This document shows positions 6,418 through 27,224 of a DNA stretch of 38,452 nt, piece by piece. The DNA is from a virus. The notes under the pieces are model-generated. The model was not told the origin of the DNA. It searched no databases and saw only the letters and a program-made list of their open reading frames with translations. Within the stretch, counting starts at the first letter, position 1; each line of letters starts with the position of its first letter. Location of the stretch: IMG/VR virus record IMGVR_UViG_3300025122_000001, positions 1 to 38,452 of that record, one strand, 5' to 3'. The translations under genes and the position numbers were made by a program.

Positions 6418-7494
6418 TTATGCTAAACCTGTTCTTTCAACCATTAATGCTTCTGCAGTTACGATTAAACTTCCGTACCACTTTAACATATATTTCTGGC
6501 TGTCGTTGTTCTTTGCTAATTCTTCAAAAGTTATATCTTGCAATACAGCTAAGAATACGTAACGAAGATCTAAAAACATTATTTCTCTGCTTGCTGCAGT
6601 TGTAGGCATAAATCTATCTTTGATAAATAAAACACCATCAAACATAAATGCATCTGGAATTCCGAAATCCATTTGTCCACTTGGTTGTTCCACATTTCGC
6701 TGGAAATCCATGAGCAAGCCTTTGACTGTATTAAAAGTTGCTGCATCAGTTACTGCAATATCTGCGTTTCCGTTTGCGTTAAACATTGTTGCCAAATCTG
6801 TTCTGATTTGTGCTAATGTAATTGCCGCTCCTGCGTTAGCAGTAGTGTTTGTTGTAATGCTTGCTCTTAATCCTTGAAAACCTAAAGCGTTTGTTGCAGT
6901 TGCACCATTAACGATTTCGTTCTCTAAGATTTCATTCATTGCTGCTGTTTTAACTCTGATGTCTTCAGCTAACAAATTTAAGTAACCCATTCCACTTGCT
7001 AATGCTGGTCCTGTAACTCTACCAACTACATAAGCATACTTCATGGTTGTACTTACTGCTGTCCAGGTATCTACGTCGTCTGCAAGTGCTGCATCATCGC
7101 CTTTAAATCCTGATCCTGCTGTTCCGTTTGTTGGAACTGCTTTTGCAGTTAATGCGTTGTAAACATAAGATCTTCCTCTTACTGCTTTTCTAGGTAATAA
7201 TCTTAACAAAGGTGTTTGTCTTACTGTTCTATCCACTAAGTTTGGATCGAAAAACGAAGGCATTAAACCTTGTACAGTGACTGTCGCCCCAGTATTTGTA
7301 TCTACTGATGGTGCTTTTGTTAAAGTACTTTCATACGCTTCACCCATTTTAATTAATCTTTCATCACAGTCTTTCTTTCCCCAAGTTAATCCACCATAAT
7401 AAGTTTCTCCTTCTTGAACACCCATTTTAGCAAATCCTTGTTCGAAAGCATATCCTGCATCAGAATCATTTGTATTACTATTCATAAATCCCAT
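6418..7494 (-). CDS. Major capsid protein, HK97 fold
   Basis: 358 aa from the ATG at 7494 (MGFMNSNTNDSDAG). This start is chosen because GGAGG lies eight bases upstream; an in-frame ATG at 7509 falls inside or before that site. Features of the family are an N-terminal arm, 'LVDRTVRQTPLLRLLPRKAVRG' leading into the E-loop region, a central 'YLNLLAEDIRVKTAAMNEILENEIVNG' spine helix, and a beta-rich C-terminus with 'VLQDITFEELAK...KWYGSLIVTA'. It is placed after the protease-scaffold gene, the classical order. It forms the icosahedral shell. Confidence 0.88.
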   Translation of the reverse strand: MGFMNSNTNDSDAGYAFEQGFAKMGVQEGETYYGGLTWGKKDCDERLIKMGEAYESTLTKAPSVDTNTGATVTVQGLMPSFFDPNLVDRTVRQTPLLRLLPRKAVRGRSYVYNALTAKAVPTNGTAGSGFKGDDAALADDVDTWTAVSTTMKYAYVVGRVTGPALASGMGYLNLLAEDIRVKTAAMNEILENEIVNGATATNALGFQGLRASITTNTTANAGAAITLAQIRTDLATMFNANGNADIAVTDAATFNTVKGLLMDFQRNVEQPSGQMDFGIPDAFMFDGVLFIKDRFMPTTAASREIMFLDLRYVFLAVLQDITFEELAKNNDSQKYMLKWYGSLIVTAEALMVERTGLA

Positions 7495-7495
7495 T

Positions 7496-8329
7496 TTATT
7501 GTCCTCCATATTTTGCTTTCAGCATATTTAATATAGTCGGTTTAAATTCTTTTTTAACTACCACCTGACTTTCTACTGTTGCTTTTAAAACTGATTGTTT
7601 CTTTAATTTCTCAATTTCCTCTTGAGCTTTTTTAAGTTCTACTGCTAATGATTTCTCAGCTTCACTTGGTTCTGCTTCTGCTGCTGGTTCTTCAGCTACT
7701 GGAGCTTCTTCTTCTTTCTTACATTCCTCTTCTGCTTCCTTTTTAATTTCTTCAACTATAGGAGCTTCAACAGGAATTTCCTTTTGTATTTCTTTATCCA
7801 CTTTAATTTCCTCCTTAGATTCAATATTAATATCAAATGATTTCGCAACTGCTGCAAAAGATGCATTTCTGTTACTTTGAATTGGCACAATAGTTGCCTC
7901 TAATATTTCCGCCTCAGTATAGCCTTTAAACTTTTCACCGTTAATATCTTTCTCAACCATTTCACCTTTCGGTATTGCACCAATACTGATTCCAATCCCT
8001 AATCCTTTACTTAATGCTTCCTCAACCATTGCCTTAGCTTGTTTTCCTAACGGATTACTTTCTAAGAAAAATGGTTCAGCTGTCATGGCAGTATTATCAC
8101 CATTTGATTTTAATTCTTTATTTGTCCATCCACCAATTAATTTCTCTAACTTATTCTCATGATTAGCTAACATTGGTAATGGTCTATTATCTTTTACCCA
8201 TGATTGTAAAAGTTCTTTTGTCATAAATTCTCCATCTCTATCAATAGAATTATCAGAGAGAATTCCGACAAAACCACCATTAATATCCTTCTGTAACGGC
8301 ATCCATAGTTTTATCATTTCTTCTTTCAT
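7496..8329 (-). CDS. Prohead protease fused to a scaffold domain
   Basis: 277 aa. The N-terminal ~165 residues match the HK97-type prohead protease (S78-like): 'GFVGILSDNSIDRDGEFM', the His in 'LANHE', the Ser in 'GIGISIGA' and 'ILEATIVPIQSNRNAS'. The C-terminal ~110 residues are a Glu/Lys/Ala-rich stretch with a coiled coil ('ELKKAQEEIEKLKKQ'), as expected for a scaffold that would be cut out during maturation. It lies between portal and capsid genes. Fusion of protease and scaffold in one chain is known in tailed viruses. Confidence 0.85.
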   Translation of the reverse strand: MKEEMIKLWMPLQKDINGGFVGILSDNSIDRDGEFMTKELLQSWVKDNRPLPMLANHENKLEKLIGGWTNKELKSNGDNTAMTAEPFFLESNPLGKQAKAMVEEALSKGLGIGISIGAIPKGEMVEKDINGEKFKGYTEAEILEATIVPIQSNRNASFAAVAKSFDINIESKEEIKVDKEIQKEIPVEAPIVEEIKKEAEEECKKEEEAPVAEEPAAEAEPSEAEKSLAVELKKAQEEIEKLKKQSVLKATVESQVVVKKEFKPTILNMLKAKYGGQ

Positions 8330-8347
8330 AGTATTATTAACCTCTTA

Positions 8348-8365
8348 AAGTATTTAAATAATATT
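8348..8365 (-). promoter_or_regulatory. 18-bp TATA-like element, copy 1
   Basis: Reads AATATTATTTAAATACTT on the minus strand. It overlaps the TAA stop of the portal gene and lies just upstream of the protease-scaffold gene. It contains ATTTAAATA, a plausible archaeal TATA box. The same 18 bases occur at 10711, 14103 (inverted) and 35238. Confidence 0.6.
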
Positions 8366-10617
8366 TAATCAACAACAAATTGAATAATGCTTCTACAATT
8401 TGGACCATGTGGTGGTTGGTCAAATTGTTTACCATCTTTAGTTTCAAAAACATCATTTAACTCAATTGCTTGATTATTCAATTCTTTACAAATATCAGTA
8501 GTGTTTTTATCAATAAATGATCGCCACTTCTTCTTGCCTTTTAATCCTGATTTCTTATATGATTCTAATCTACCATGATTAATGAAACGATTACTTTCCG
8601 TCCTCGCTATCTTCATAACTCTACCTTTAGTTACTTTTCCATTAACCTCACCACCTTTTAACTTGGTGAACATGGTTTTAATCTCTTTACTAATATCACT
8701 TAAACTTTGTTTACCAGATATTCCATCAGCAACAATCTTGCTGACTTTATTCTGAACATCTATACTTACACCTTTTATTCCCTTCCATCTTTTACCATCA
8801 ATAGTAAACCCTTCTAATTGTCTATCAGCTAATTGTTTAATTTCACGATTAAAATCTAAACTTATACCAATATCCATGTTTAATTCTTCTTCTGCTGCTT
8901 CAACTCCCTTCTTAACATCTATACGTATAACTCTCTGTAACCCAGTCATAAAACGTGTAGTATTAACAGAATTAAGTAACCGCCTAATAAACTCACCAAA
9001 AGACTTAACAACATAATCTTTTTGTATCTCATCTTTAATTGTCTCCTCTAAGAATCCTAAAATTGATTTCTCCCAACCATTAAACTTCTTAGTTAAAAAA
9101 TCAGCATAATCTTCAGCTTCCTCAATAACATCTTCTCCTTCATCAATTATTTGTTTCTGAATATCCACCTTCGCTTCTTTCTTTTCTTCTCTTTCTTCTT
9201 TTTTCTTATCCCTATCTTTTGGATTATCTCGTTTATTATCTTCCTTCTCTTTATCTTTTGGATTATCTTTTTTATCATCTTCCTTCTCTTTATCTTTTGG
9301 ATTATCTTTTTTATCATCAAAATCACCTTGTTCTATCATTCGATCCTGCATAACCATACTCATAGGTTGATCTCCCCATTCAACTGGATCTAAACCTTCC
9401 ATTGCTCTAACTTCATTAATAGTAAGTACACTCGCATTTAACTTTGCCATCATTTGTTCATGTTCAACCTTTTCAGCTGCATCATCTTTAGTAAACCATT
9501 CAAACTTAATCTTATCATGTCCAATTAACTCATTCCTAATCTCACAATTAATCTTCTGTTCAATTAAAGTAAGATAAGGTTTGATTGCATTTTTAATTGT
9601 AATTCGCTCCTGACTTTCACCAGTACTTTTATTACTGTTTTCATAGAACCCAACTTCTTGCGGACTTAAACCATAAGCACCAAACACAATATGAAAGTAC
9701 CACTTTTGTCCTTCTAACCAATCCATGTCTTTATTACTTAAAGCCATTGGGGTAAATTTAGCATCACTGTTTAAGAAGGCAAGTTTGTGAGCCTTGCCTC
9801 TCATCTCTTGTTCCCATGCGTGTTTGAAATCTCTAAGATTGTCCAATGTCATCTCAGCAGTAATCATACCATCTGGCATTGCATTGTTCTTAAAGAACTC
9901 TTTATTATAACGAGTAGACTGTATCATAACTTCTACTTCTTGCTGAATTGATTGAAGTGGTGAATAACCATAAGGGGCGAACTCAGTGTTAGTATTTACT
10001 CTACCATAAATAATTTCATTTCTCTTAAATGGAATTGGTGCACCTTGTATCTGTCTAAACGAATATTGATAATATGCTGGACGTTCTTCACCATTCTCAT
10101 CATCTCCACCAATAATACCATGTTCATCAACATTAATTAGAAATCTTCCACCATCATGTGTAAATAACTCAACAAGTTCTCCAGCTAAATTCCTACCCTT
10201 GAATACAACACCTGCATCAATCTCAAGTACGTCTCTTAAGAATGGCACCCAAATATCCCAAAAGGTTGCACCATTACGATTAGGTGATTGTAATAAAGTT
10301 CTTAACTTTTCAATATCAGCAGAATAATCAGTTTGATCTTCCTCATCTGCTACAATAATATCCCATTCAGTTGTCATAATTTGTTTAGAAATAGCATTTG
10401 TTACCATCTGTACCCATGGACTTTTTGCATATTGTCTGACCTCAGGTAAATTAATATTACGTGGCATACCTAACTGTGGGTTGAATAACCATGTAGGTAA
10501 GACAGGTAAAGACTCTTGTGGAGCCATATCACTCGGATTAAAGAGACGTATCTCTTTAGTGAGCTTGTTTCGTGTTGACTTAATAAAGTCTATAAATCCC
10601 ATAAGTTGAAAACCCAC
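8365..10617 (-). CDS. Portal protein fused to a MuF-type minor head protein
   Basis: Up to 750 aa from GTG 10617; ATG 10602 (MGFIDFIKSTRNK) is the more natural start, though neither has a clear Shine-Dalgarno. Residues ~30-420 are a portal: 'SPWVQMVTNAISKQIMTTEWDI', 'NEIIYGRVNTNTEFAPYGYSPLQ' and 'FGAYGLSPQEVGFYENSNKSTG'. A Lys/Asp-rich linker of 13-residue repeats follows (~430-485). The C-terminal ~200 residues carry the SPP1 gp7/MuF signature 'IARTESNRFINHGRLESYKKSG', 'KWRSFIDKNTTDIC' and 'QPPHGPNCRS'. Fusion ties the minor head protein to the portal one to one. Confidence 0.9.
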   Translation of the reverse strand: MGFQLMGFIDFIKSTRNKLTKEIRLFNPSDMAPQESLPVLPTWLFNPQLGMPRNINLPEVRQYAKSPWVQMVTNAISKQIMTTEWDIIVADEEDQTDYSADIEKLRTLLQSPNRNGATFWDIWVPFLRDVLEIDAGVVFKGRNLAGELVELFTHDGGRFLINVDEHGIIGGDDENGEERPAYYQYSFRQIQGAPIPFKRNEIIYGRVNTNTEFAPYGYSPLQSIQQEVEVMIQSTRYNKEFFKNNAMPDGMITAEMTLDNLRDFKHAWEQEMRGKAHKLAFLNSDAKFTPMALSNKDMDWLEGQKWYFHIVFGAYGLSPQEVGFYENSNKSTGESQERITIKNAIKPYLTLIEQKINCEIRNELIGHDKIKFEWFTKDDAAEKVEHEQMMAKLNASVLTINEVRAMEGLDPVEWGDQPMSMVMQDRMIEQGDFDDKKDNPKDKEKEDDKKDNPKDKEKEDNKRDNPKDRDKKKEEREEKKEAKVDIQKQIIDEGEDVIEEAEDYADFLTKKFNGWEKSILGFLEETIKDEIQKDYVVKSFGEFIRRLLNSVNTTRFMTGLQRVIRIDVKKGVEAAEEELNMDIGISLDFNREIKQLADRQLEGFTIDGKRWKGIKGVSIDVQNKVSKIVADGISGKQSLSDISKEIKTMFTKLKGGEVNGKVTKGRVMKIARTESNRFINHGRLESYKKSGLKGKKKWRSFIDKNTTDICKELNNQAIELNDVFETKDGKQFDQPPHGPNCRSIIQFVVD
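9212..9318 (-). repeat. 39-bp tandem repeat inside the portal-MuF gene
   Basis: Three copies with a 39-base period (starting near 9212, 9251 and 9290) encode the 13-residue unit DDKKDNPKDKEKE, the third copy more diverged. It forms a highly charged flexible linker between the portal and MuF domains. The in-frame period means copy number can change without breaking the gene. Confidence 0.9.
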
Positions 10618-10874: not shown

Positions 10875-11447
10875 CTATCCAAAGAACCAACCGACCTGTT
10901 TTCCTCTGATCCCATGACAAGCACATGCTAAAGCATCTACAAAATCATCATGTCCGCCTTCACTATGATGTAGCTTTAAATTACCGCTCTCAGTTGTTTC
11001 ATATCTGAAATCTTTCAACTGATATATTAGTTTCTTATTATTAGGTATTAATAATTTACCTTGTTCCATTAATAATTTAAGGTTAGAAAATATGTCCATC
11101 TTATTCTTTTGGGTGAAAGTAACACCAACAACAATATCGTTGTCATTAGGACGTTGATTATAATTAGTAGGATTAATTGTTTTGTGTGCATTAAGTTTCT
11201 TTGCAAGTACATCAACAACACCAGCCCCCAGTCCAGTGCTGTCGCATACTATCTTGGCGAAAGAAAAACGATTATGAAGATATAAAATATAATCAATAGC
11301 CTGATCCATTGTATTCTTCTTTAACTCTTTAATGAACACAACTTTGTTTACTTCTTCCTCTTGTTTAATTATAATGAACACACTACAATCTTGACCGAGC
11401 CTAGCCAAGTCAGCACCTAGTAAGTATGTTATTGAAATCCCATCCAT
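10875..11447 (-). CDS. Terminase large subunit, nuclease domain as a separate gene
   Basis: 190 aa. It is an RNase H-like packaging nuclease: 'GADLARLGQDCSV' (Asp 13), 'IVCDSTGLGAG' and 'GGHDDFVDALACA' give the three acidic positions. In most viruses it is joined to the ATPase domain; here the ATPase is a separate gene at 11622-12386 with a membrane-protein gene between. ATG 11447 overlaps the end of that small gene but has no visible Shine-Dalgarno, so translation probably depends on coupling. It cuts concatemeric DNA at the portal. Confidence 0.85.
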   Translation of the reverse strand: MDGISITYLLGADLARLGQDCSVFIIIKQEEEVNKVVFIKELKKNTMDQAIDYILYLHNRFSFAKIVCDSTGLGAGVVDVLAKKLNAHKTINPTNYNQRPNDNDIVVGVTFTQKNKMDIFSNLKLLMEQGKLLIPNNKKLIYQLKDFRYETTESGNLKLHHSEGGHDDFVDALACACHGIRGKQVGWFFG

Positions 11448-11620
11448 ATCATATAATTACATATCAAAAAACCACAAAAACCCCAAAATAAACAAATTCC
11501 TATAATTATCTTTCCACCTAATGTTTCAGTGTTTATACAAAAAAACCAACCTACTGAACAAAATAAAAAAAATAATATTAATGTAAATGTCGCAAATAAT
11601 CTAAATATAATTCCTTCCAT
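11429..11620 (-). CDS. Small two-helix membrane protein inserted between the terminase halves
   Basis: 63 aa from ATG 11620 (MEGIIFRLFATFTLILFFLF). GGGGAG lies seven bases upstream and the preceding ATPase gene stops two bases before the ATG (TGAGATG). Two hydrophobic segments (about 4-28 and 34-60) are separated by a short polar loop. The 3' end overlaps the nuclease gene. No family recognised. AT-rich DNA can mimic hydrophobic ORFs, but the ribosome site and tight coupling favour a real gene. Confidence 0.6.
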   Translation of the reverse strand: MEGIIFRLFATFTLILFFLFCSVGWFFCINTETLGGKIIIGICLFWGFCGFLICNYMIWMGFQ

Positions 11621-11621
11621 C

Positions 11622-12386
11622 TCATATCTCCCCCAACATTTCATAATCACTTATACATTTGTCAATAAGTTGCCATGGGAAGTATGAATCCTCGTCGGGA
11701 ATGAACTCAGCATTATACTCTGTCCGAAACTCAATACTATTTTCGCCTAACTGCTTCTTCTGTTCCTCTATAAACTCTACACTGAAATGTCCAACTCTAA
11801 GTGCATCTTCCCATGTATACCTATGACTTATGTAATTATCATCTGACTGAAAACTATTATAAAAATGATTCATTGCAAACGGTGTACTAATCTTAATTAT
11901 CTTACCCTGTGTTGCTGCAACCATTGGTGTCAGTACCTGATTAACTATTGTATCTTTAATGAACGCAGCTTCTTCCATAATCAAAACATTAGCTGTCATT
12001 CCTCGTATAGTATCACCAGAATCTCCGACTGGTAATGCACTAATCCTGCAATTGTTACGCATGATTAATTGACGTTGTGTTGACGTCGCAATCTCTGAAC
12101 CAATTGGTGCATTCTTAACATGTGCTAATATTTTGTTAAATAGTTCTCCTGCTTGTCTATCAGTTGGTCCAACAATGACAATATGACCACCAGGATTCTT
12201 TAATGCTTCACATATAGCTAGAATAGAAATCGTTAATGACTTTCCAGTCTGTCTACAAAATGACCCAATAACTCTATTTTTCATTAAACAATCTTTAAGG
12301 AATTTATCTTGAAAATCATATAATTCTATATTAAACATTATCTTAATCTTCTGTTTGATCGTCATTGCTTGTTTGATTTTTTTCAT
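11622..12386 (-). CDS. terL: Terminase large subunit, ATPase domain as a separate gene
   Basis: 254 aa. It is a packaging-motor ATPase: Walker A 'CRQTGKS' (about 44-50), Walker B 'VLIMEEAAF' (about 133-141) and coupling motif 'STP' (about 167). It ends DYEMLGEI, just where the linker to the nuclease would normally begin. The start is uncertain: 12386 overlaps the small terminase gene by 44 bases, while ATG 12365 or ATG 12338 (MFNIELYDFQ) would also keep the conserved 'LYDFQ' region. Together with the 10875 product it should make a two-chain motor. Confidence 0.88.
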   Translation of the reverse strand: MKKIKQAMTIKQKIKIMFNIELYDFQDKFLKDCLMKNRVIGSFCRQTGKSLTISILAICEALKNPGGHIVIVGPTDRQAGELFNKILAHVKNAPIGSEIATSTQRQLIMRNNCRISALPVGDSGDTIRGMTANVLIMEEAAFIKDTIVNQVLTPMVAATQGKIIKISTPFAMNHFYNSFQSDDNYISHRYTWEDALRVGHFSVEFIEEQKKQLGENSIEFRTEYNAEFIPDEDSYFPWQLIDKCISDYEMLGEI

Positions 12387-14141: not shown

Positions 14142-14585
14142 TTAGTTTTTAGACTTATTATTATATAACTTATAATAACTCTTAAATAGTTCTTTAATTA
14201 TTTTCTTTGATTCAATTCTATTGTTTGCGAAAAATATATTAATATCATATTTAACATGAAGTGTGAATAATATCGACGTGATAACATATCCACGCATTTT
14301 AGAGAAATAAGAATTGGGAAAATCCTTATTGATGCAGTTTGTATAACTCCCTTCGATCACAATAGCGAAGTAATCATAACTTTTTGATCTTTCTAGTTCT
14401 TTCTTGAATCGTTTATGTCCACCACCTAAAGTTCCGAATAAATCACCCAGACTTTTCCTTTCTATCGCAATTTTATCTTCAAACCCTTCAATAGAATAAT
14501 CACCCACGTCGAGCTTTTTAACTACAACATTCTTATTCCAAAGTGGTTTCTGTTCTCTTGTATCGATTATTATTGTATAGTCCAT
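14142..14585 (-). CDS. ERCC4/XPF-type DNA nuclease
   Basis: 147 aa. The nuclease core is visible at the N-terminus: 'IIDTREQKPLW', 'VKKLDVGDYSIEG', 'IAIERKSLGDLFGTL' (the ERKxxxD active site) and 'YFAIVIEGSY'. The family cleaves branched or flapped DNA, as in archaeal Hef/XPF. No helicase or HhH domain is attached, so it is a minimal nuclease, likely resolving replication or packaging intermediates. Its ATG overlaps the polymerase gene end by 16 bases. Confidence 0.88.
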   Translation of the reverse strand: MDYTIIIDTREQKPLWNKNVVVKKLDVGDYSIEGFEDKIAIERKSLGDLFGTLGGGHKRFKKELERSKSYDYFAIVIEGSYTNCINKDFPNSYFSKMRGYVITSILFTLHVKYDINIFFANNRIESKKIIKELFKSYYKLYNNKSKN

Positions 14586-16321
14586 GCTGATAATTCAATT
14601 TGACTGTTATCTTTTTTTGTACTGAATGCTTTTGGAACGTAGTTAGAAAAACAATCCATCTCGCTCCAAAACTTGTTCAACACTAAACAATTCAAACTTA
14701 ACCCTCTTTTTTTAAATTCTTCAACTGTGCAATATCTTACTGATTTTCCAACTCCTAAATATTTATTTGGGAGTAATATATGAACACCTGTTCCATGTTC
14801 TTTACTTATTTGTGCTTGTAATTGATTTGGATTTTTATAATAATCAAACTCATTCACATTAAACTTCCTTGCTGCAATCAATATATCCTCTGTAAGTTCA
14901 TTATATAACCAATTTTTAATTTCTTCATACGTGAATTTAATATCCCCTTTTATCACTCTTTCATTCATATATTTGTTAAATATTTTGTAACCAATTTTAG
15001 AAGAATCATTTTTGATCATTGGTAACCCTTTTACTTTAAGTTTACCTTTGTTAGTTACAAACATATAATGTTTTTTCAAGAACTTATCATTCTTCTTAAA
15101 AAACCAAATATGTTTAATTTCTTCATCAATTCCCATATCAAATGTAATAATAGGAAATGGTAAGTTGTTTTTGATCTCTTTAATAATTGATTCTTTAACC
15201 ATTAGAAGTCTATCTTTGTCTTTGAATACATCTTTCAAATATACTGAATCTGTGTCACTATATAACACATAATATCCTGAATCAATGAATTTCTTCCTAG
15301 CTAATTTAATTGACTCCCTACCAATCAAAGTACAATCATGTGCCGCTTTATAATTATATAATGACTCAAATACAGGATTACCAGTCAACCCATACAATGT
15401 ATTAATAACAATCTTCAATGCATATTCACGTTTATCATTATTTTTCTTTAACTCTTTCCTCATACAATATATCTTATGAATCTTTCTTTCAATATCACCC
15501 AATCTCTTTGAACAATATCCACCAACAAGAGGAAACAAATTATTACCTTTCCATTTTTCATCTTCTCTACAACATTTACAACTATGTGAAAATAAATTAC
15601 CCTGAATCATATTATGGGGATATAGACTATTAAAATCAAAACAATAAATATCATCATGTTCTTCAGCTTTAATAGGCTCAGCAACAAACCCTCCTTTATA
15701 TCCCTTATGCTCAACATTATCGTTATATCTCTCTTTTAATCCAACAGCATTACAGATTACTTTATACGAATAAACACTGATTGAACTTGTCAACCATTTA
15801 TAATTACTCTTATCATAATTAGACATAAAACCCTTAAACGGCTCAAAAAACTCACATAACTTCTGAAATAACTCATAAGTAATCCTAATATCAACCAAAG
15901 TATATGCTTTAATCTCCTCATATTCATGTTTTAAGAGATTATATTTTTTAAGTAGATTATAGTCCAATTCACTCTTAACTTGCTTTAAATCAAAGAATTT
16001 CGCCATATTACGCATTGATTTGCTCTCATTCTTACATCCAAGTACCTCTGCTCTCTTCTTAATCACTTCAAATAAGTCAATATGCAGATGTCTATAAGGA
16101 AACATACCATGTCTTTTAAGTATTGGTTCATCATATTCTTTTGAATTGTAACCAATAATAACTTTATGTTTTTTTAACAAATTAATAACTTCTTCTTTTG
16201 TTTCTACAAAATGATATATTTTTGCTTCAACTTCATACGCACCCATAAACCTAAACTTATCTTTAAGTGGATTTGGTTTTGCTCCAACAACATCAGTTTC
16301 AATATCAAACACAAGCGTCAT
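14570..16321 (-). CDS. polB: Family B DNA polymerase
   Basis: 583 aa, short for the family. Proofreading exonuclease: D6/E8 in 'VFDIETD', 'IGYNSKEYDEP' (~56-66), 'YTLVDIRITYE' (~140-150). Polymerase: motif A 'DFNSLYPHNM' (~229), motif B 'KIVINTLYGLTGN' (~303), motif C 'YSDTDSVYL' (~354) and 'KVKG' (~429). All catalytic residues are present. The thumb is reduced and no uracil-sensing N-terminal domain is seen. No protein-priming insert is evident, in line with the encoded primase. GGAGG lies seven bases before ATG 16321 inside the end of the transglycosylase gene. Replicates the viral genome. Confidence 0.95.
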   Translation of the reverse strand: MTLVFDIETDVVGAKPNPLKDKFRFMGAYEVEAKIYHFVETKEEVINLLKKHKVIIGYNSKEYDEPILKRHGMFPYRHLHIDLFEVIKKRAEVLGCKNESKSMRNMAKFFDLKQVKSELDYNLLKKYNLLKHEYEEIKAYTLVDIRITYELFQKLCEFFEPFKGFMSNYDKSNYKWLTSSISVYSYKVICNAVGLKERYNDNVEHKGYKGGFVAEPIKAEEHDDIYCFDFNSLYPHNMIQGNLFSHSCKCCREDEKWKGNNLFPLVGGYCSKRLGDIERKIHKIYCMRKELKKNNDKREYALKIVINTLYGLTGNPVFESLYNYKAAHDCTLIGRESIKLARKKFIDSGYYVLYSDTDSVYLKDVFKDKDRLLMVKESIIKEIKNNLPFPIITFDMGIDEEIKHIWFFKKNDKFLKKHYMFVTNKGKLKVKGLPMIKNDSSKIGYKIFNKYMNERVIKGDIKFTYEEIKNWLYNELTEDILIAARKFNVNEFDYYKNPNQLQAQISKEHGTGVHILLPNKYLGVGKSVRYCTVEEFKKRGLSLNCLVLNKFWSEMDCFSNYVPKAFSTKKDNSQIELSAWTIQ

Positions 16322-17231
16322 TATGATGCCTCCATAATTTTAAACCTAATTCTCTTGGAATATCCCCATAATTATCTTTAATCCAATGATCACGAGCTTC
16401 AATTAATAACTGTTCTTTCGATGGTTGTATATGAGAACTTTCTAATCCAAAATCTGTTAATTGATTTTGTCTGATCCTGAACTCTTTAACATTATGTTCA
16501 TTCTGCATTTTTAAATAACTTAATATGTTAAATTCATTTCTTATATTATAATCATTACCAATACCCTCAACAGTTAATCCTCTACTAATAATTTCTTGTT
16601 TCCATTTATCATTGATTTCTTTAAAATATTTGGTGCCTAAAACAATATCAAACAATGCTCCAGTTTTACCACCCATAATCCAGGAACTACTATCAACACT
16701 AAACCAAGGATAACGGTTAACCAATCTGGTTGTTGTCAAACCAAATCCATGAAATTTATGTTTAGGATACTTAGAAAATATTGAATCCAACCATCCAATA
16801 AGTTTCTTTGTTGGTATTGGCACCATACCACCCAATGCAACAAAATCATAATTTTCACAATAATGTTCTAAATACTTCCAATCATCTCCATAATGAAAAC
16901 AAGGAACAGGGTTAACCCCATTATCTTCCATGTATTCTTGATTTTTTAATGTACCCTGTGCTGAACCAATAACATCTAATACAGCATAAAACTCTGCATC
17001 TGTTTCTTTACAAAATTTGATATATTCATCAATATCAATTTTACTACCTAAACTAAAAGCACTAAATGCGCCACTATCAATAAACAATAACTGTTTAACC
17101 CCAAGATTTTGTTTAATCCTTGGATTTTGCTTCCAATCCTTCTTAATATGATAATATGACATGAGCATATTACCATTATGTTTATTTACCAATTCATGGA
17201 ACGCTTCCGACCCAGCAAAGAACATTTTCAT
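16305..17231 (-). CDS. dpdA: DpdA-like DNA guanine transglycosylase
   Basis: 308 aa from ATG 17231, chosen because it forms an ATGA overlap with the upstream stop and has GAGG eight bases before it. It is TGT-like: 'LLFIDSGAFSAF' holds the acid/base Asp (D52) and 'PWFSVDSSSW' the nucleophile Asp (D180), the pattern seen in viral DpdA proteins rather than tRNA TGTs. A tRNA-binding PUA domain and the TGT zinc site are not seen. With queC/D/E and folE alongside, the expected reaction is exchange of guanine in DNA for preQ0. It overlaps the DNA polymerase gene. Confidence 0.85.
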   Translation of the reverse strand: MKMFFAGSEAFHELVNKHNGNMLMSYYHIKKDWKQNPRIKQNLGVKQLLFIDSGAFSAFSLGSKIDIDEYIKFCKETDAEFYAVLDVIGSAQGTLKNQEYMEDNGVNPVPCFHYGDDWKYLEHYCENYDFVALGGMVPIPTKKLIGWLDSIFSKYPKHKFHGFGLTTTRLVNRYPWFSVDSSSWIMGGKTGALFDIVLGTKYFKEINDKWKQEIISRGLTVEGIGNDYNIRNEFNILSYLKMQNEHNVKEFRIRQNQLTDFGLESSHIQPSKEQLLIEARDHWIKDNYGDIPRELGLKLWRHHNDACV

Positions 17232-17404
17232 TTTTTCAACCTCTCTATTTTTTCCCATAACATAAAACAATAGTTTGCAATATCCCTACATTCTTCTTGC
17301 ATATCCACTAAAAGTTCATTATGAGATTTTGAAAGGTATTTATCACCATAAATGGTTTTACCTTTTTCAAAACCTTCATTCATGAACTTTTGAAATTTAG
17401 ACAT
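17228..17404 (-). CDS. Small helical protein within the 7-deazaguanine cluster
   Basis: 58 aa from ATG 17404 (MSKFQKFMNEGFEKGKTIYG). The end 'HNELLVDMQEECRDIANYCFMLWEKIERL' has the spaced acidic helix look of small MazG-like nucleotide pyrophosphohydrolases, but it is too short to be sure. It overlaps queC at one end and the transglycosylase at the other, so it is probably co-made with the modification enzymes. Could clear competing nucleotides or be a structural helper; both are guesses. Confidence 0.6.
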   Translation of the reverse strand: MSKFQKFMNEGFEKGKTIYGDKYLSKSHNELLVDMQEECRDIANYCFMLWEKIERLKK

Positions 17405-18059
17405 ACTCAATTGGATCACCTACTCCTGCTTTTTGAAATGCTTCTAACCTTTCAACACATGATCCACATTTTCCACAGGCTTTGTCTTGTCCTTTATAAC
17501 AAGTCCAAGTAAGATTATAATCAACACCAAATTTATGTCCAAGAATAACAATATCTCCTTTATCCATATCAACAAATGGTGCTTCTAATTTAACTTCAGC
17601 CCAATCACAAAGACTAACTGCTTTCTTCATTGCTTCAACAAACTCTTTCCTACAATCTGGATAAATATCATGATCACCTCTATGAGCACCATACCAGATA
17701 GTTTTTGCTCCAACCGATATTGCATAAGATGTTGCTAAACTTATCAATACCATATTCCTATTCGGTACTACTGTCTGTTTCATGTTTTCATCAGCATAGT
17801 GACCTTCAGGAACTTCAATATCTTTTCTTGTTAATGCTGATGGTGCTAACTCATTCAAAACACTTACATCAATCATTTTATGTGGAACATTAAGTTTCAT
17901 ACAACTTTCTATTGCACATTCTAATTCTTTCAAATGTTTTTGACTATAATCAAAACTAATAGCATGAACATTTCCTGAACCAAAATAATCCATCGCTTTA
18001 TACAGTAATGTTGTTGAATCCATTCCACCACTTAATATTACTAACCCTTTTTCTATCAT
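17397..18059 (-). CDS. queC: 7-cyano-7-deazaguanine (preQ0) synthase QueC
   Basis: 220 aa, full length. PP-loop 'LSGGMDSTTLL' (residues 9-19), 'PNRNMVLISLA', 'GAHRGDHDIYPDCR', and the four-Cys zinc site 'CYKGQDKACGKCGSC' near the C-terminus. It turns 7-carboxy-7-deazaguanine into preQ0 using ATP and ammonia. GAGG precedes ATG 18059, overlapping the FolE fusion stop by four bases. Confidence 0.96.
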   Translation of the reverse strand: MIEKGLVILSGGMDSTTLLYKAMDYFGSGNVHAISFDYSQKHLKELECAIESCMKLNVPHKMIDVSVLNELAPSALTRKDIEVPEGHYADENMKQTVVPNRNMVLISLATSYAISVGAKTIWYGAHRGDHDIYPDCRKEFVEAMKKAVSLCDWAEVKLEAPFVDMDKGDIVILGHKFGVDYNLTWTCYKGQDKACGKCGSCVERLEAFQKAGVGDPIEYV

Positions 18060-18919
18060 TTTACAAACCTCATAAACTCAGCTCTTGCCTCTGGTTTATC
18101 TTTAAACACACCTCTCAAATCAGAAGTTATCATTTCACCTTTTTTCTTTACTCCTCTCATCTCCTTACATAAATGTCTTCCTCTCATAACTAATGCTATA
18201 CCTAAAGGTTTAATTTGACTTTCAATTTCATCTAAAACCTCTTTCACTAATCTTTCTTGTATTTGAAGTTTAGCTGAATAGTAATCTATCATTCTTGCTA
18301 CTTTACTTAATCCTAATATTTTTTTATCAGGAATGTATGCAAACCAATACTTCCCAAAAAATGGAACCATGTGATGTTCACATTGACTGTAATAATCACC
18401 TGAATCAATAATCATTTCATCATATTGTAATCCATCATGTCCATTTTCAAATATTGCCATTCTTGGTTTTTGTTTTTTGTCATAACCTTTAAATAATTCC
18501 TTCCACATTTTTATTACACGTTTTGGAGTATCGATTAAACCTTCTCTTTTTGGATCTTCACCAATAAATTCTAATTGTCTTACAACTAAATCTTCAGTAT
18601 CTTGATTAGTGTTTTCATACCAAAATTCAATCCATTCATTTTCTTTTTTAGTAATTAAAGCAAAGAAGGGATAATCTTTAAATTTCTCCATTGTTCTACC
18701 AGAATCAATAAGATCATCAACAACTAAACATTTATCATTTAACTCAGTTGTAAATTTTAAATCTGTTAATTCAGCAATTTTCATTGCTAAAAGAATACCA
18801 CCACGTGGAACGCCATATACAAATTCAACATCTTTTGGTCCTTTTAAATAAAAGTTCTGTGCTCCAATACTCATACTTTCAACTAACTTAATCCATTCAT
18901 TATATTCAATTCTTCTCAA
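18056..18919 (-). CDS. folE: Phosphoribosyltransferase-GTP cyclohydrolase I fusion
   Basis: 287 aa from TTG 18919, chosen because GAGGTG lies six bases upstream; the GTG at 18928 belongs to that ribosome site. Residues ~1-105 are a type I phosphoribosyltransferase: 'VYGVPRGGILLAMKIAE' and the PRPP loop 'CLVVDDLIDSGRTM'. Residues ~115-287 are GTP cyclohydrolase I: 'EDPKREGLIDTPKRV', 'YSQCEHHMVPF', 'KILGLSKVARMIDYYS', 'QIQERL' and 'RHLCKEMRG', with the zinc Cys/His ligands present. The FolE part makes dihydroneopterin triphosphate for QueD. The PRTase may feed guanine into GTP; its substrate is not known. It overlaps queC. Confidence 0.9.
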   Translation of the reverse strand: MRRIEYNEWIKLVESMSIGAQNFYLKGPKDVEFVYGVPRGGILLAMKIAELTDLKFTTELNDKCLVVDDLIDSGRTMEKFKDYPFFALITKKENEWIEFWYENTNQDTEDLVVRQLEFIGEDPKREGLIDTPKRVIKMWKELFKGYDKKQKPRMAIFENGHDGLQYDEMIIDSGDYYSQCEHHMVPFFGKYWFAYIPDKKILGLSKVARMIDYYSAKLQIQERLVKEVLDEIESQIKPLGIALVMRGRHLCKEMRGVKKKGEMITSDLRGVFKDKPEARAEFMRFVK

Positions 18920-18920
18920 A

Positions 18921-19535
18921 TTATACACCTCTTTTTATATTCCATACTTTTATATGTTGTCTTAAACAAAATTTCTTATTATGTTTAAGAGATAAATTCC
19001 AAACATCTTTTTCTATCTGGTTATCTATTCTACCTCCATCAACTGTTAATGGCATAAACATTGATGCAAATGGAATTAAATAAACACCTACTTTAAATCC
19101 ATCTGTTACAACTTTAATATCTCTTTTATCATATTCAATATCATTATCAATTATAAGACTCATTACATGTCTTGCATCTTTAATATTTTTTGGACTTATT
19201 GCCAAATAATCAAAATTATCAAAATGTTTCTTTTTTAATAGTCCTCCATTTGTTTCTATATGATGTTGAATATTATGTTTTTTTAATTTATCAATAACTT
19301 TCTTTATTGCTGGAAATTGTAATAATGGTTCTCCACCTGTCCAAACTATTATTTCTCTATTTAATGATAAAATTTTACTTACAATATCATCTTCTGAAAT
19401 AACTTTCCCTGTTTTCCATTCTGTATCACAAAAATCACAATTCAAGTTACAACCTTGTAATCTGATAAATAATACAGGATAACCAGCATATTTACCTTCA
19501 CCTTGTATAGATTCAAATATTTCATTAACTCTCAT
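18921..19535 (-). CDS. queE: 7-carboxy-7-deazaguanine synthase QueE
   Basis: 204 aa. Radical SAM enzyme: 'FESIQGEG', cluster motif 'CNLNCDFCDTEW' (C29, C33, C36), 'VWTGGEPLLQ' and 'IETNG'. It converts carboxytetrahydropterin to carboxydeazaguanine. It overlaps queD by four bases with GAGG before its ATG. Length and motifs are normal for the family. Confidence 0.95.
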   Translation of the reverse strand: MRVNEIFESIQGEGKYAGYPVLFIRLQGCNLNCDFCDTEWKTGKVISEDDIVSKILSLNREIIVWTGGEPLLQFPAIKKVIDKLKKHNIQHHIETNGGLLKKKHFDNFDYLAISPKNIKDARHVMSLIIDNDIEYDKRDIKVVTDGFKVGVYLIPFASMFMPLTVDGGRIDNQIEKDVWNLSLKHNKKFCLRQHIKVWNIKRGV

Positions 19536-19969
19536 TCTTCATACCTCGCTGTTGATGTTGGAGTTTCCCAAACTTTAATATATTTAATTTTAATACCTAA
19601 ATCATTTAATCTTGGTTTTATTAATTCATACCAATGTTTTGATAAATTTTCAACAGTTGGAATAAAATCAGTAATTATTATTTTTTGATCATACTCTTTC
19701 CTTAATTGATTAAAGAATATCCAAAATTCATCTTTCTCATAAATACAGAAACCATGATCGAATTTATTATCAATTTGTGTTATCATAATTTCTTTCAAAT
19801 CACCAAAATCAATAACCATTCCTTCACTACTATCTCCTTTTTTTGTTATTAATTTATCATTAACACCAACTTCTATTTTATATCTATGACCATGAATGTT
19901 TTTACATTTACTTTTATGATTTGGAATCCTATGTCCCATATCTATTTCAATTGTTTTAGTTATTAACAT
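19532..19969 (-). CDS. queD: 6-carboxy-5,6,7,8-tetrahydropterin synthase QueD
   Basis: 145 aa. The zinc histidines are H13 ('MGHRIPNH') and H26/H28 ('CKNIHGHRYKI'), with catalytic C22, 'MVIDFGDLK' and 'FDHGF'. First gene of the tight queD-queE-folE-queC-dpdA run. AGAGG precedes ATG 19969, and a terminator hairpin sits just upstream, so this run likely has its own promoter or depends on readthrough. Confidence 0.94.
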   Translation of the reverse strand: MLITKTIEIDMGHRIPNHKSKCKNIHGHRYKIEVGVNDKLITKKGDSSEGMVIDFGDLKEIMITQIDNKFDHGFCIYEKDEFWIFFNQLRKEYDQKIIITDFIPTVENLSKHWYELIKPRLNDLGIKIKYIKVWETPTSTARYEE

Positions 19970-19980
19970 TTTACACCTCT

Positions 19981-20004
19981 AAAAAAAGAGGGTGATAAAT
20001 CACC
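19981..20004 (-). terminator. Intrinsic-type terminator before queD
   Basis: Minus strand: GGTGA-TTTA-TCACC stem-loop overlapping the TGA stop at 20000, then CTC and seven T. It separates the 20000-20323 gene from the modification cluster. Confidence 0.6.
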
Positions 20005-20323
20005 ACTCCTTCACACTATACTGTGTGTCAAACCTATCCCCAACTCTAAGTATTGACAATTTAACTTCTGATGTTGGATCTTTCTTCTCCAAGATTGGTC
20101 TTAGTTTCTGTTTTAATCTTCTGCTTGATGTTGTAAACATCTTCTCACACTTCTCTCCATCTTCTTCAATACAGTCTGCTTGAAGTTCGATTGTTTCCTT
20201 ACCAAATTTCTCAACTTTCAAAAGTTGAATATTTCTGATAATTAATTTCTTTTCTTTGTCACTTTCCAAACTAATAAAACCACTTGAAGCTACTGCTTCG
20301 TCCCAATTTACGTTTTCTGTCAT
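20000..20323 (-). CDS. Conserved viral hypothetical, possible ssDNA-binding protein
   Basis: 107 aa, MTENVNWDEAVASSGFISLE. A beta-strand-rich core ('KKLIIRNIQLLKVEKFGKETIELQADCIEEDG') followed by a basic helix 'TTSSRRLKQKLRPIL' and 'VKLSILRVGDRFDTQYSVKEW'. It resembles small proteins seen near viral replication genes; an OB-like nucleic-acid-binding role is a guess. Its leader carries a hairpin shared with the gene at 21092. Confidence 0.65.
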   Translation of the reverse strand: MTENVNWDEAVASSGFISLESDKEKKLIIRNIQLLKVEKFGKETIELQADCIEEDGEKCEKMFTTSSRRLKQKLRPILEKKDPTSEVKLSILRVGDRFDTQYSVKEW

Positions 20324-21222: not shown

Positions 21223-23883
21223 CTATATTAACATTATCTTACCTCTAGTTATCATAATATCTCCATCCCTGCTCATTTTCTTGACCATTTCATCAATCTT
21301 TTCACGATGTTCTTCTCCGAAATGTTTTATCACTTCTTCGATACAAATCAAGTGATTTTTTGACGTTTTTAGGTAGTGTATTACATCGTCATACCTTAAA
21401 CTTTTTCCCATATTTGAGAGTAATAAATGATCACTATTTATGTGGTGATCATTTTTACGTTTATGATCTGGGATTTTGTTTAAGGTCCAAAACGGCTCTA
21501 CCCCTTGAATTCGGACAGCTGACGGATTCACCTTAAAGTGAAAATCGGAGCTGACATGGATTTTTGAAATTTTCCATTTTGAAAAATCCATATTAGAACC
21601 GTTTTCAACTTTAAGCAAAGCTATTTTTTTAAGCAGTTCTTCTCCTGTTGGAAGATCAATCAATTTGACTGCTTTATCCTCATTTAACGCATAAGTAGTA
21701 GTTTTTCCTGCACTTTTTTCAGCTGTGATAAACCCAAGATTTTCAAGGTGTGAAAGCAGTCCATGCCAGTGAGTATGCGACTTTCCCATGATTCTCATAA
21801 CATCATAAACATTAAATTCTGCCTTCCATGTCATCTTTTTGATCATATTTAGTAGATCAATTTGATTCAAAGTCAACCCTGTAAATGTAGCTCCTAAGAT
21901 ACTTTCACTGTATTGTCTAGCAATGTTGTAGTCATCTATACTACAAATTAAATGCTCTACACCATCTATTTCTGTCTTTTCTCGCTGATATTGATGTAGA
22001 TAAGTGGAGCATTTGATCAATGTAGCAAACTTCTGGAAATCTCTCCTTGCTCTAACATCATTTAAGGGTATATTAAGAGCTTTTAATTCTAAATAAGGGA
22101 TTACATAGTGATACTGTTTAAGTTGCTTTAAAGCATCCCTAATAACCCTTAAATCGCTCTTATTAAACTTCTTTAAACCTTTATTTAATTCACATTGATA
22201 GTCAAGTATTTCTTCTGTTTGTCCAGAACTCACATCCATACTGATCTGCCACCCACGATTCAATAACTGATCTTCTACTATACCTTCAGCTTGACATGAT
22301 ACAAATACAGGATGTCCAATAGTTCTCTTATTTACAAGTGCTTTACGTTCGATACCATCTGGGTCTTTAACTGTTTCAACAGTTGCAAGTTTGCAACTAC
22401 CTTCACTCATCCAAACTCTTAATTGACTGGTATTTTCGTCTAATCCCTGCAATTCTTCAATAAATATGATTTTTCCGTCCATATTTATTTCTGTGAAATA
22501 ATTAACAGCATTCTTACTTAATCTACTTACTATTATGTAATCTTCATCTTCTTTACCGAATAACTTCATTATACGTTTAGCAACATATGATTTCCCAGAG
22601 CTTGAATCTGAAGCAAGAATAATATTCTGACTCATTGGATCAGAAGGTATATTCCATCCGGGTTTTCCTGTTTCTGATGGAAAATCTTTACTAAGCATTA
22701 ATAAAAAAATCAATAATTTGATACTATTCTCTCCCACAACTTCTTCATCTAATACTTTTTTAACTTTAGTTAATATTTCAGAATTATTTAGGAAATCAAT
22801 AGCTTCTTTGTTCTTTGCATTACAAAATTCACATATGGTTTTATCATGAACACCTAATTCTTCTAATTGTCCACAATTCCAAAATACATGCTCTTGAGCA
22901 TATATCCAATTAATCCACTGTTCCGCTTCACCATAAGTAAATCTATGTCCTGATTGTTCACAATTATCAACATAAGAGTTTAAAACTTCTTTTGCTGTAT
23001 TTTTATTTAATTGATCAATCTTACAAGCAACTGATAATATTAATGCTCCGGTTGTTCTTTGACCTGTACCTAAACCTTCTTTTATTTTTAATACTCCATC
23101 TATATCTAAATAATTAATATCAAGTCTTTCATTGATCAATGGTCGATCTTCTCGTGTTTCTGCTGATTTAATAAACTCTTTTAACATAGTACAAAGTTCA
23201 ATAATATCAACGTGAAACGTATTTATTTCTTGAGGATATTTTACATTTTCAAAATTAACAATTCTTGGTTTCTTTTTATTAAATTCTTCTTTAGTTAAAT
23301 ATGTTTTATATAAAGTTTCAAATTCACCATTAGACTTCTTAGTTATTTTTCTTCCACCACAATCTCTTATTAAATGACTACTACCTGCGAAATAATTAAA
23401 TGATATTGGTGCAGTATCGACCATTTTACCACGACCACGATATTTACTTTCAATACCAGCCTCGTCGAGAATTGAGTTATAAATCCACAATCTGATATTT
23501 TTCCAAGACATATTATACGAGAACGCTTTTTTCATTAATTCTTTATCGTTCTTTTCTGTTAAATTTATTTTATCAAAGAATATATGAATGTGAATCCCTT
23601 TACCACCTGAGGCAAATATATAATATGGAATATTTCTATTTTCTAGAACTTCAACAACTGCTTTGGCATTTGTAAAATTTTTAACATAACTTCCCCAGTC
23701 GAAATCAAATATAACTTCATTAAGAAATACAGTTCTGTCGTCGTGCATTTTGAATTTACCCAAGTTATATCTATTTCCGGGTTTATATTCACCAATACTT
23801 GACTTAAATGTAAGAACAGTTACTTGTAATTCTGTTGCACCTACTTTTTTCAATACCTCAATATATTTCTCTTGATCATTCAT
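21223..23883 (-). CDS. Archaeo-eukaryotic primase fused to AAA+ helicase
   Basis: 886 aa. Primase domain (~1-250): metal-binding 'VIFDFDW' (D60, D62), 'ASGGKGIHIHIFFD' (~91-104) and 'GSSHLIRDCGGRK' (~167-179). A Cys cluster follows ('NCGQLEELGVHDKTICEFC', ~336-354). AAA+ domain: Walker A 'ASDSSSGKS' (~424-432), Walker B 'KIIFIEEL' (~471-478), then 'VSCQAEG'. Two winged-helix segments follow ('VYDVMRIMGKSHTHWHGLLSHLENLGFI' and the last ~50 residues). It should prime and unwind viral DNA for the family B polymerase. GAGGTG precedes the ATG. Confidence 0.93.
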   Translation of the reverse strand: MNDQEKYIEVLKKVGATELQVTVLTFKSSIGEYKPGNRYNLGKFKMHDDRTVFLNEVIFDFDWGSYVKNFTNAKAVVEVLENRNIPYYIFASGGKGIHIHIFFDKINLTEKNDKELMKKAFSYNMSWKNIRLWIYNSILDEAGIESKYRGRGKMVDTAPISFNYFAGSSHLIRDCGGRKITKKSNGEFETLYKTYLTKEEFNKKKPRIVNFENVKYPQEINTFHVDIIELCTMLKEFIKSAETREDRPLINERLDINYLDIDGVLKIKEGLGTGQRTTGALILSVACKIDQLNKNTAKEVLNSYVDNCEQSGHRFTYGEAEQWINWIYAQEHVFWNCGQLEELGVHDKTICEFCNAKNKEAIDFLNNSEILTKVKKVLDEEVVGENSIKLLIFLLMLSKDFPSETGKPGWNIPSDPMSQNIILASDSSSGKSYVAKRIMKLFGKEDEDYIIVSRLSKNAVNYFTEINMDGKIIFIEELQGLDENTSQLRVWMSEGSCKLATVETVKDPDGIERKALVNKRTIGHPVFVSCQAEGIVEDQLLNRGWQISMDVSSGQTEEILDYQCELNKGLKKFNKSDLRVIRDALKQLKQYHYVIPYLELKALNIPLNDVRARRDFQKFATLIKCSTYLHQYQREKTEIDGVEHLICSIDDYNIARQYSESILGATFTGLTLNQIDLLNMIKKMTWKAEFNVYDVMRIMGKSHTHWHGLLSHLENLGFITAEKSAGKTTTYALNEDKAVKLIDLPTGEELLKKIALLKVENGSNMDFSKWKISKIHVSSDFHFKVNPSAVRIQGVEPFWTLNKIPDHKRKNDHHINSDHLLLSNMGKSLRYDDVIHYLKTSKNHLICIEEVIKHFGEEHREKIDEMVKKMSRDGDIMITRGKIMLI

Positions 23884-24601: not shown

Positions 24602-24704
24602 GTGTTGTGAGAGAAGATACATACAATTAAGAAATAGAGTTAAATGGTTAAGATTTTTTGTATGTAACAACTGTGATAAATTTGTGAGGACTGATGAAAA
24701 ATGA
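24594..24704 (+). CDS. Putative zinc-ribbon mini-protein without an ordinary start codon
   Basis: The frame is open from 24588 to TGA 24704 and encodes NKCCERRYIQLRNRVKWLRF, then FVCNNCDKFVRTDEK. The Cys-Cys and CNNC pairs look like a real ribbon, and its TGA forms an ATGA overlap with the next gene, as elsewhere in this operon. No ATG, GTG or TTG exists in frame; ATC 24594 with GAGGTG seven bases upstream is the best candidate start. It may instead be a remnant. Confidence 0.4.
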   Translation: MNKCCERRYIQLRNRVKWLRFFVCNNCDKFVRTDEK

Positions 24705-25000
24705 AAAGAATATTAATTACATTGTTAGTCTCGTTATTGTTTCTAACTGGGTGTGGAATAGTTAAGAACACTTGTGTTAAAGAATATCCGACATTAACTG
24801 AGACTAAATTAAATGAGAACAAGACAGAGTATGTAATGAGTGGAGACTTTTTATTGAAATCTTGTGAATCTGATGAAACTAAAAGAAGTTGTACTTGGTT
24901 AGTTAGGAATCAAACATATACTAAGAAATGTCAAGAAGGAATGTTTTGTGAACTGCAATGGATTAGTAATAAATTAGTTCCAATATGTAAGAAGGTGTAG
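24701..25000 (+). CDS. Lipoprotein with cysteine-rich exposed domain
   Basis: 99 aa. Signal peptide 'MKRILITLLVSLLFLTGCG' with a lipobox LTGC, so C18 would be lipidated. The mature part has six further Cys in a small beta-like domain. Surface lipoproteins of viruses often block superinfection, but nothing here proves it. A lipobox is typical of bacteria and also used by some archaea. Confidence 0.7.
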   Translation: MKRILITLLVSLLFLTGCGIVKNTCVKEYPTLTETKLNENKTEYVMSGDFLLKSCESDETKRSCTWLVRNQTYTKKCQEGMFCELQWISNKLVPICKKV

Positions 25001-26528: not shown

Positions 26529-27224
26529 TCAATAAAATATACCCACGAGTTTCCCATGAATATGTTCTGCTCTAGTAAACTTACCATTTAACTGATCGTT
26601 AAACACTAAGTTATCCCCCCGTGTGATGCAATACCAACCTTGTTTGTCTTTACCTATCTCTACAATTCTATGTAAAACAAAAGGTTGATTATCTAAAATT
26701 CTATCAAACAAAATAATATCTCCGACCATTAATTTGTGAACATTAACTGTATTTCTAATTAACAATCTATGTCCTTTATCAATCAAAGGCTCCATACTAT
26801 TTGTATGGTTTCCTAACTTAACTTCATAATCATCCCCAAGACTCACTCTAAATCTATCAATATCAATTGCATTAAAAGCACTGAAATCAACCTTAGGACT
26901 TGGTAATTCTTCTGCTGCAACAATCTTCTTAACCTTAACCCGTTTCTTATACATTGATCTATTTATGTCGTCGAGAACTCTATCAATATATTTAATAGAT
27001 TTAGACTTAGGAAGATCAACAGTAAAAGATTTGATCATAGAATTCAGTTCTTCAATCATCTGTTCTTTTTCTTTTATTGCCAGAACATTATCTTTCTTTA
27101 AAACAGATAATCGGTTTTCTAAATATTTAGCATTACGCTTCTCAATTTCTAAATTACCTTTAAGTATTTCTATTTCATTTTCAAGGCTAGTTAAACCAAA
27201 TAAATCTTTTAACCACTTTATCAT
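26529..27224 (-). CDS. Coiled-coil protein with a signal peptidase I-like (S26B-type) domain
   Basis: 231 aa. N-terminus 'MIKWLKDLFGL' could be an amphipathic membrane anchor; residues ~12-68 form a coiled coil. The C-terminal ~105 residues match signal peptidases: 'HTNSMEPLIDKGHRLLIR' (Ser 143), 'VGDIILFDR', 'PFVLHRIVEI' (His 185) and 'YCITRGDNL' (Asp 204). A His in place of the bacterial Lys is the archaeal/ER type. No true transmembrane helix is seen. It lies between the receptor-binding gene and the holin-like gene, so a role in lysis or in trimming virion proteins is possible. Confidence 0.75.
   Translation of the reverse strand: MIKWLKDLFGLTSLENEIEILKGNLEIEKRNAKYLENRLSVLKKDNVLAIKEKEQMIEELNSMIKSFTVDLPKSKSIKYIDRVLDDINRSMYKKRVKVKKIVAAEELPSPKVDFSAFNAIDIDRFRVSLGDDYEVKLGNHTNSMEPLIDKGHRLLIRNTVNVHKLMVGDIILFDRILDNQPFVLHRIVEIGKDKQGWYCITRGDNLVFNDQLNGKFTRAEHIHGKLVGIFY

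Follow-up and report, generated by a model that had tools for sequence, protein, structure and literature searches.

A predicted preQ0 DNA-modification cassette with an XGPRT-FolE fusion in a probably archaeal tailed virus

In viral 7-deazaguanine DNA modification, FolE converts GTP into a pterin precursor from which QueD, QueE and QueC make preQ0, and DpdA exchanges preQ0 for guanine in DNA. The same enzyme set yields 2'-deoxy-preQ0 (dPreQ0) in phages CAjan and Rosebush, and deletion of dpdA in CAjan abolishes dPreQ0 (PMC6884629). Haloviruses of the Druskaviridae carry a preQ0 pathway as well (PMC8651126). Here we describe such a cassette in the virus record IMGVR_UViG_3300025122_000001 of IMG/VR, which is classed as linear and was analyzed over its full 38,452 bases (hereafter, the window). 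The genes are transcribed in the order QueD, QueE, FolE, QueC, a 63-codon open reading frame (ORF), DpdA and DNA polymerase B (PolB), all on the minus strand, and FolE is preceded in the same protein by a xanthine-guanine phosphoribosyltransferase (XGPRT) domain. The DpdA exchange must free one guanine per modified base; to our knowledge, the fate of this guanine has not been addressed so far, and an XGPRT domain joined to FolE provides a testable answer.

An earlier note on this DNA, made from the sequence alone, had placed queD, queE, a fused folE, queC and a DpdA-like gene at 16305-19969 in an overlapping run directly followed by a DNA polymerase gene. Pfam and PHROGs matches locate all five genes there, with neighboring frames sharing a few bases and running directly into PolB. 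The note recognized that FolE is a fusion but did not name the partner. We consider it reasonably probable that this virus, likely an archaeal one, makes preQ0 from GTP, has it swapped into DNA by DpdA and recycles the guanine through XGPRT.

An XGPRT domain joined to FolE

A profile built from 71 fused proteins matched XGPRTs in the PDB along almost the full length of the domain (E-values of 1.6e-9 to 2e-8). With the search space fixed at 5,000, the N-terminal part of the profile also matched E. coli Gpt at 8.6e-13. The equivalents of Gpt Asp88, Asp89, Asp92, Gly94 and Thr96, which we take to form the phosphoribosyl pyrophosphate (PRPP) loop, and of Lys115 and Trp134, presumably in the purine site, are 92-100% conserved in these 71 proteins; both the PRPP loop DDxxDxG and the purine-site Lys and Trp are thus kept in the fused domain family. 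The identity of the domain rests on sequence profiles because the top 50 Foldseek matches of the fusion are FolE structures only. By these profiles, the fusion opens with a compact XGPRT of 108 residues, for which catalysis is predicted.

The fusion is widespread in viral cassettes. A search of IMG/VR viral contigs for the XGPRT domain gave 79 loci, in 78 of which it was joined to FolE; among the 78, at least one Que gene was present in 76 and DpdA was found in the flank in 68, with some flanks stopping at contig ends. Sampling based on DpdA recovered the fusion in 39 of 75 FolE-bearing loci, and sampling from unfused FolE sequences recovered it in 26 of 80. Separate XGPRT-like genes occur in other cassettes (contigs L016, L045, L067 and L214, the last from a Clostridia metagenome-assembled genome), and that of L067 keeps a long loop region and scores above the Pfam phosphoribosyltransferase (PRTase) cut-off. 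Scanning bacterial and archaeal genomes for the domain was of no help in finding the host, L214 standing alone among the matches listed. Our search of the open-access literature found no account of phage FolE combined with an XGPRT or PRTase, and the fusion is apparently undescribed so far.

The recycling that we infer would proceed as follows. The virus would make preQ0 from GTP by means of its own FolE, QueD, QueE and QueC, and its short phage-type DpdA would swap preQ0 for guanine in replicated DNA, which would thereby resist host restriction. The XGPRT domain would turn the guanine released by DpdA into GMP, and host kinases would return GMP to GTP, feeding FolE. Because each base exchange would use one GTP and free one guanine, the loop would be in one-to-one balance. 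More tentatively, many viruses with 7-deazaguanine DNA may carry a bifunctional XGPRT-FolE that recycles DpdA-expelled guanine into preQ0 synthesis and closes a purine cycle. Such a cycle, if real, would have gone unnoticed because the fusion proteins are annotated solely as GTP cyclohydrolase.

Four observations weigh against this scheme. First, the flexible loop is shortened: the spacing from RGG to DD is 24-39 in 102 of 104 proteins and 29 in the window fusion (residues 42 to 71), compared with 51 in Gpt. This shortening may cost activity, and it speaks more strongly than anything else against catalysis and in favor of a sensor. Second, the fusion is no more linked to DpdA than unfused FolE is (23/3 vs 46/8, p = 1), because FolE in that set nearly always accompanies DpdA. 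Third, contig L174, a close relative that has this pathway as well, carries an unfused FolE, so the XGPRT domain would be an improvement and not a requirement. Fourth, a scan of 84,980 prokaryote genomes with the PolB alignment found no provirus or relative and no host genome.

If the domain served as a sensor, it would bind guanine, GMP, PRPP or ppGpp (guanosine tetraphosphate) and tune FolE without salvage catalysis. PRTase folds do act as ligand-binding regulators in PurR and PyrR, and in animals the partner protein GFRP controls FolE; the retention of substrate-binding residues alongside a shortened catalytic loop would suit such a role. However, there is almost no variation at the equivalent of the acid/base residue Asp92 or at the Lys and Trp that contact the purine, and the separate, loop-bearing XGPRT in the L067 cassette fits an enzyme better. 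Since the Asp92 equivalent and the L067 gene argue for catalysis, we regard the sensor as an unlikely, though not a negligible, alternative to guanine salvage.

The preQ0 cassette and its predicted product

Canonical QueC is defined by the motifs SGGxDS, YxQxHxxE, VPxRN and YPDC and the zinc motif C(x)8CxxCxxC (PMC13329287). The window protein keeps all four signature motifs and the four Cys of the zinc motif, the first spacer of which is 7 residues instead of 8 (C(x)7CxxCxxC); this spacer is 7 residues long in 50 of 100 viral QueC matches and 8 in 1 of 100. The zinc/catalytic residues of FolE listed in Table 1 are invariant columns in alignment A5 and are intact in the window, and the AlphaFold2 (AF2) model of FolE (predicted local distance difference test score, pLDDT, 94.7) matched 1wm9 in Foldseek at 1.7e-22. 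A folate-only role for FolE was rejected since FolE sits inside the preQ0 gene run, and a queuosine-only role was rejected since DpdA is present in the cassette. Chance ORFs were excluded because of the E-values of the family matches and the strict synteny.

The window transglycosylase is a DpdA by family, because it keeps the invariant residues of the CAjan type, has no match to the Pfam profile of tRNA-guanine transglycosylases (TGTs) and is devoid of the TGT zinc motif; base exchange and insertion of preQ0 are predicted from this assignment. It is 37% identical to CAjan DpdA and retains all residues invariant among ten aligned DpdAs, including that of CAjan, and the TGT-type aspartates D65 (DSGAF) and D193 (VDSSSW) are invariant across 67 aligned proteins. 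The Pfam TGT profile PF01702 found no match in the window, and the same profile matched in 14 of 14 control genomes; identity as a tRNA TGT was rejected on this ground. The C-terminal zinc motif CxCxxC...H, present in E. coli TGT and in the enzymes of L174 and L092, is absent from the window protein. Structure prediction, which the earlier note had proposed as a check against DpdA and TGT, gave a TGT-like fold (AF2 pLDDT 87.6), with ArcTGT 1iq8 (6.7e-9; TM-score 0.58 by query) and TGT 6z0d as the top Foldseek matches. Grouping with tRNA TGTs, which the note had held to speak against its reading, is not what the profile comparison gave; a DpdA/TGT tree rooted by one TGT (E. coli, branch 10) was dominated by long branches and was set aside as uninformative.

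For translation of dpdA, ATG 17231 (MKMFFAG...) is preferred over the listed TTG 17270, which is probably not used because family members start with MKxFxAG and ATG 17231 shares bases with the stop codon of the 63-codon ORF. The latter has no family match in Pfam or PHROGs. Contig L002 is a second, near-identical copy of the cassette region, and the DNA of its dpdA is identical to that of the window except that a 33-nt block (16554-16586) is swapped for an unrelated 21-nt block. Both blocks are in frame, and the difference is either a population variant or an assembly artefact. In another viral contig (L003), two tandem DpdA paralogues (6860-7780 and 7950-8810) follow an XGPRT-FolE fusion.

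As for the product, the note had seen no QueF, ArcS or Gat-QueC, and none was matched among the window proteins that we scanned (Pfam and/or PHROGs; not every small ORF was scanned). Because of this, dPreQ0 is the best prediction for the DNA of the virus. Family membership likewise predicts the base exchange and the anti-restriction role. The view that the cassette is complete for placing preQ0 in DNA and has no tailoring genes is thus borne out by gene identities, motifs, DpdA family and fold, with the product as a prediction. The novelty that the note attached to it is lower than supposed, however: the enzymes are there, but the dPreQ0 set is known (PMC6884629) and haloviruses carry the preQ0 pathway (PMC8651126).

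A host or viral enzyme, for example the 63-codon ORF product, might convert preQ0 further, giving 2'-deoxy-7-amido-7-deazaguanosine (dADG), 2'-deoxyarchaeosine (dG+) or the deoxynucleoside of preQ1 (dPreQ1). QueF lies in the same slot of the relatives L092 and L174, and dPreQ1 is found in HVTV-1 DNA together with trace amounts of dG+ and dADG (PMC6884629). Nevertheless, we judge another product improbable, as QueF is absent and the short DpdA type accompanies dPreQ0 in CAjan, which has no amidotransferase (PMC6884629).

Table 1. Features of the cassette and its surroundings in the window
Feature	Position	Strand	Evidence or remark
QueD	19532-19969	-	145 aa; PF01242 5e-33, phrog_2389 2e-33; CxxxHGH
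QueE	18921-19535	-	phrog_2076 6e-31, PF04055 3e-14; CxxxCxxC cluster motif
XGPRT-FolE fusion, whole	18056-18928	-	PF01227 4e-57 over residues 115-289
Mini XGPRT domain, N-terminal (fusion residues 1-108)	18605-18928	-	profile matches to XGPRTs
FolE domain (fusion residues 109-290)	18056-18604	-	PF01227 4e-57; C183, H185, H186, H252, C254
QueC	17397-18059	-	220 aa; PF06508 5e-71
63-codon ORF between queC and dpdA	17228-17419	-	open frame, overlaps queC and dpdA
DpdA, short phage type	16305-17231	-	308 aa from ATG 17231; phrog_887 6e-58
DpdA C-terminal tail HWIKDNYGDIPRELGLKLWRHH	16323-16388	-	common to the longer L174 transglycosylase
PolB, right slot edge	14570-16321	-	PF00136 1e-20; synteny with L092, L172, L173, L174
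107-aa conserved protein, left slot edge	20000-20323	-	48-68% identity in L092, L172, L173, L174
Primase-helicase (N-terminus like archaeo-eukaryotic primases, AEP, and helicase-like part)	21223-23883	-	weak LigD_Prim-Pol match

The modification slot and the host

Four viral contigs (L174, L092, L172 and L173) share PolB (47-60% identity) and ERCC4 genes with the window, and the primase was also seen in L174, L092 and L172 within the stretches compared. The region between the 107-aa gene and PolB, which we call the slot, differs among them. That of L174 holds QueD, QueE, the unfused FolE, QueC, QueF and a 426-aa transglycosylase, and that of L092 holds QueD, a different QueE, XGPRT-FolE, QueC, QueF and a 424-aa transglycosylase. 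These longer transglycosylases, which have the TGT-type zinc motif and both aspartates, accompany QueF. In the L172 slot, methyltransferase-like and radical-SAM-like (radical S-adenosylmethionine) genes were recognized by eye only. The L173 slot encodes an S-adenosylmethionine (AdoMet) synthetase, and a DNA methyltransferase is located on the opposite side of the 107-aa gene (L173 344-2654), so this virus supplies its own methyl donor beside the methyltransferase.

The identities of the cassette genes do not fit a single tree: QueD and FolE of the window are 72% and 63% identical to those of L092 and 30% and 33% identical to those of L174, QueE is nearer that of L174, and QueC is close to both alike. 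The C-terminal tail of the window DpdA, HWIKDNYGDIPRELGLKLWRHH, is absent from the short DpdAs aligned with it; in a comparison with 27,693 ORFs, it came closest (E 0.003) to the end of the long L174 enzyme, which is encoded at the same place. Although the tail match is short, the simplest account is likely: a phage-type dpdA would have taken the place of QueF and the long enzyme through recombination, with the end of the old gene retained. The slot is a place where related viruses exchange base-modification chemistries, and the transglycosylase left behind is apparently a hybrid. Similar virus backgrounds become comparable with dPreQ0, QueF-derived and methylation chemistries.

The structural genes of the window are those of a tailed virus (TerL, a portal with a Mu-F domain, protease, capsid and tail tube). 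The primase-helicase matched 11 INPHARED records, all 11 of which are archaeal viruses, namely Sulfolobus spindle-shaped viruses and Halorubrum tailed virus 27; a scan for close relatives of the primase found none. The AdoMet synthetase of L173 belongs to PF01941, which we take to be the archaeal type. The archaeal-type tailed virus proposed in the note therefore gains support, and we infer that the host is probably an archaeon. A bacterial host, with replication genes made archaeal in appearance by horizontal transfer, is improbable. The cassette is phage-like, the portal matches include Thermus and other phages besides a halovirus, and a lipobox-bearing ORF (24701-25000) would suit bacteria, but the relatives of the primase-helicase are in archaeal viruses only, and PF01941 in L173 points the same way.

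Other features of these genomes were observed. TerL of the window (10875-12386) is split into an ATPase part (11622-12386) and a nuclease part (10875-11447) that are encoded in separate, overlapping frames; a hydrophobic ORF of 73 codons (11429-11650) is inserted at the hinge. The arrangement is the same in L002 but not in L174, in which TerL is intact (465 aa, 14573-15970). No Rfam intron match was found. No tRNAs or Rfam families were found in the window. A signal-peptidase-like protein without a Pfam match (26529-27224; SMEPLI...HRIVEI...RGDN) has, by eye, a catalytic His of the archaeal/endoplasmic reticulum type rather than the bacterial Lys. A protein of L172 (11772-12167) starts with MNKKGQGEML, resembling an archaeal class III signal peptide.

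Comparison with described systems

The preQ0 base is a guanine analogue, and a modified-dGTP route proposed for Campylobacter phages without DpdA (as cited in PMC6884629) might suggest that the XGPRT domain converts preQ0 or a precursor into a nucleotide for direct incorporation or sequestration, but this is very unlikely, as DpdA in the window virus and nearly all fusion carriers makes such a route superfluous and the cassette has no gene for making deoxyribonucleotides. Among known proteins, the fused domain resembles E. coli Gpt in sequence family, PRPP loop and purine-site Lys and Trp, and differs from it in the shortened flexible loop and the attachment to FolE.

CAjan and Rosebush resemble the window virus in having FolE, QueD, QueE, QueC and DpdA with no amidotransferase (PMC6884629), and in CAjan dpdA also lies just before polymerase genes. 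However, both infect bacteria and differ in gene order and replication module, and CAjan FolE has no XGPRT domain. The halovirus HVTV-1 and the Druskaviridae are archaeal tailed viruses, as the window virus probably is, and like it have FolE, QueD, QueE and QueC in the replication region (PMC6884629, PMC8651126). Unlike the window virus, HVTV-1 has an unfused FolE and a QueF, no DpdA was recognized in it by Hutinet 2019, and its DNA carries dPreQ1 (PMC6884629). In HVTV-1, the gene adjoining FolE, HVTV1_69 (L216 33803-34963; 386 aa, DUF6610, phrog_16059), is, by its position, a candidate for the base-inserting enzyme still missing from this virus; the DpdA profiles of this analysis did not match it.

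The same XGPRT-FolE fusion as in the window is found in Queuovirinae and phages like them, namely Pseudomonas NP1/PaMx25, Vibrio VpKK5, Stenotrophomonas ply2008005c and Sphingomonas MMDA13, where it lies just before dpdA and is 38-42% identical overall to the window protein. In NP1, VpKK5, MMDA13 and ply2008005c, it is annotated as GTP cyclohydrolase only. Small genes without assignment adjoin dpdA in CAjan and MMDA13, as the 63-codon ORF does in the window. These phages differ from the window virus in having bacterial hosts and the order QueE-QueC-QueD-FolE-DpdA-clamp-polymerase, and NP1 carries Gat-QueC and MMDA13 a QueF-like gene. The cassette adds one more example of a known system, from a viral lineage about which little is known, and the XGPRT-FolE fusion sets it apart.

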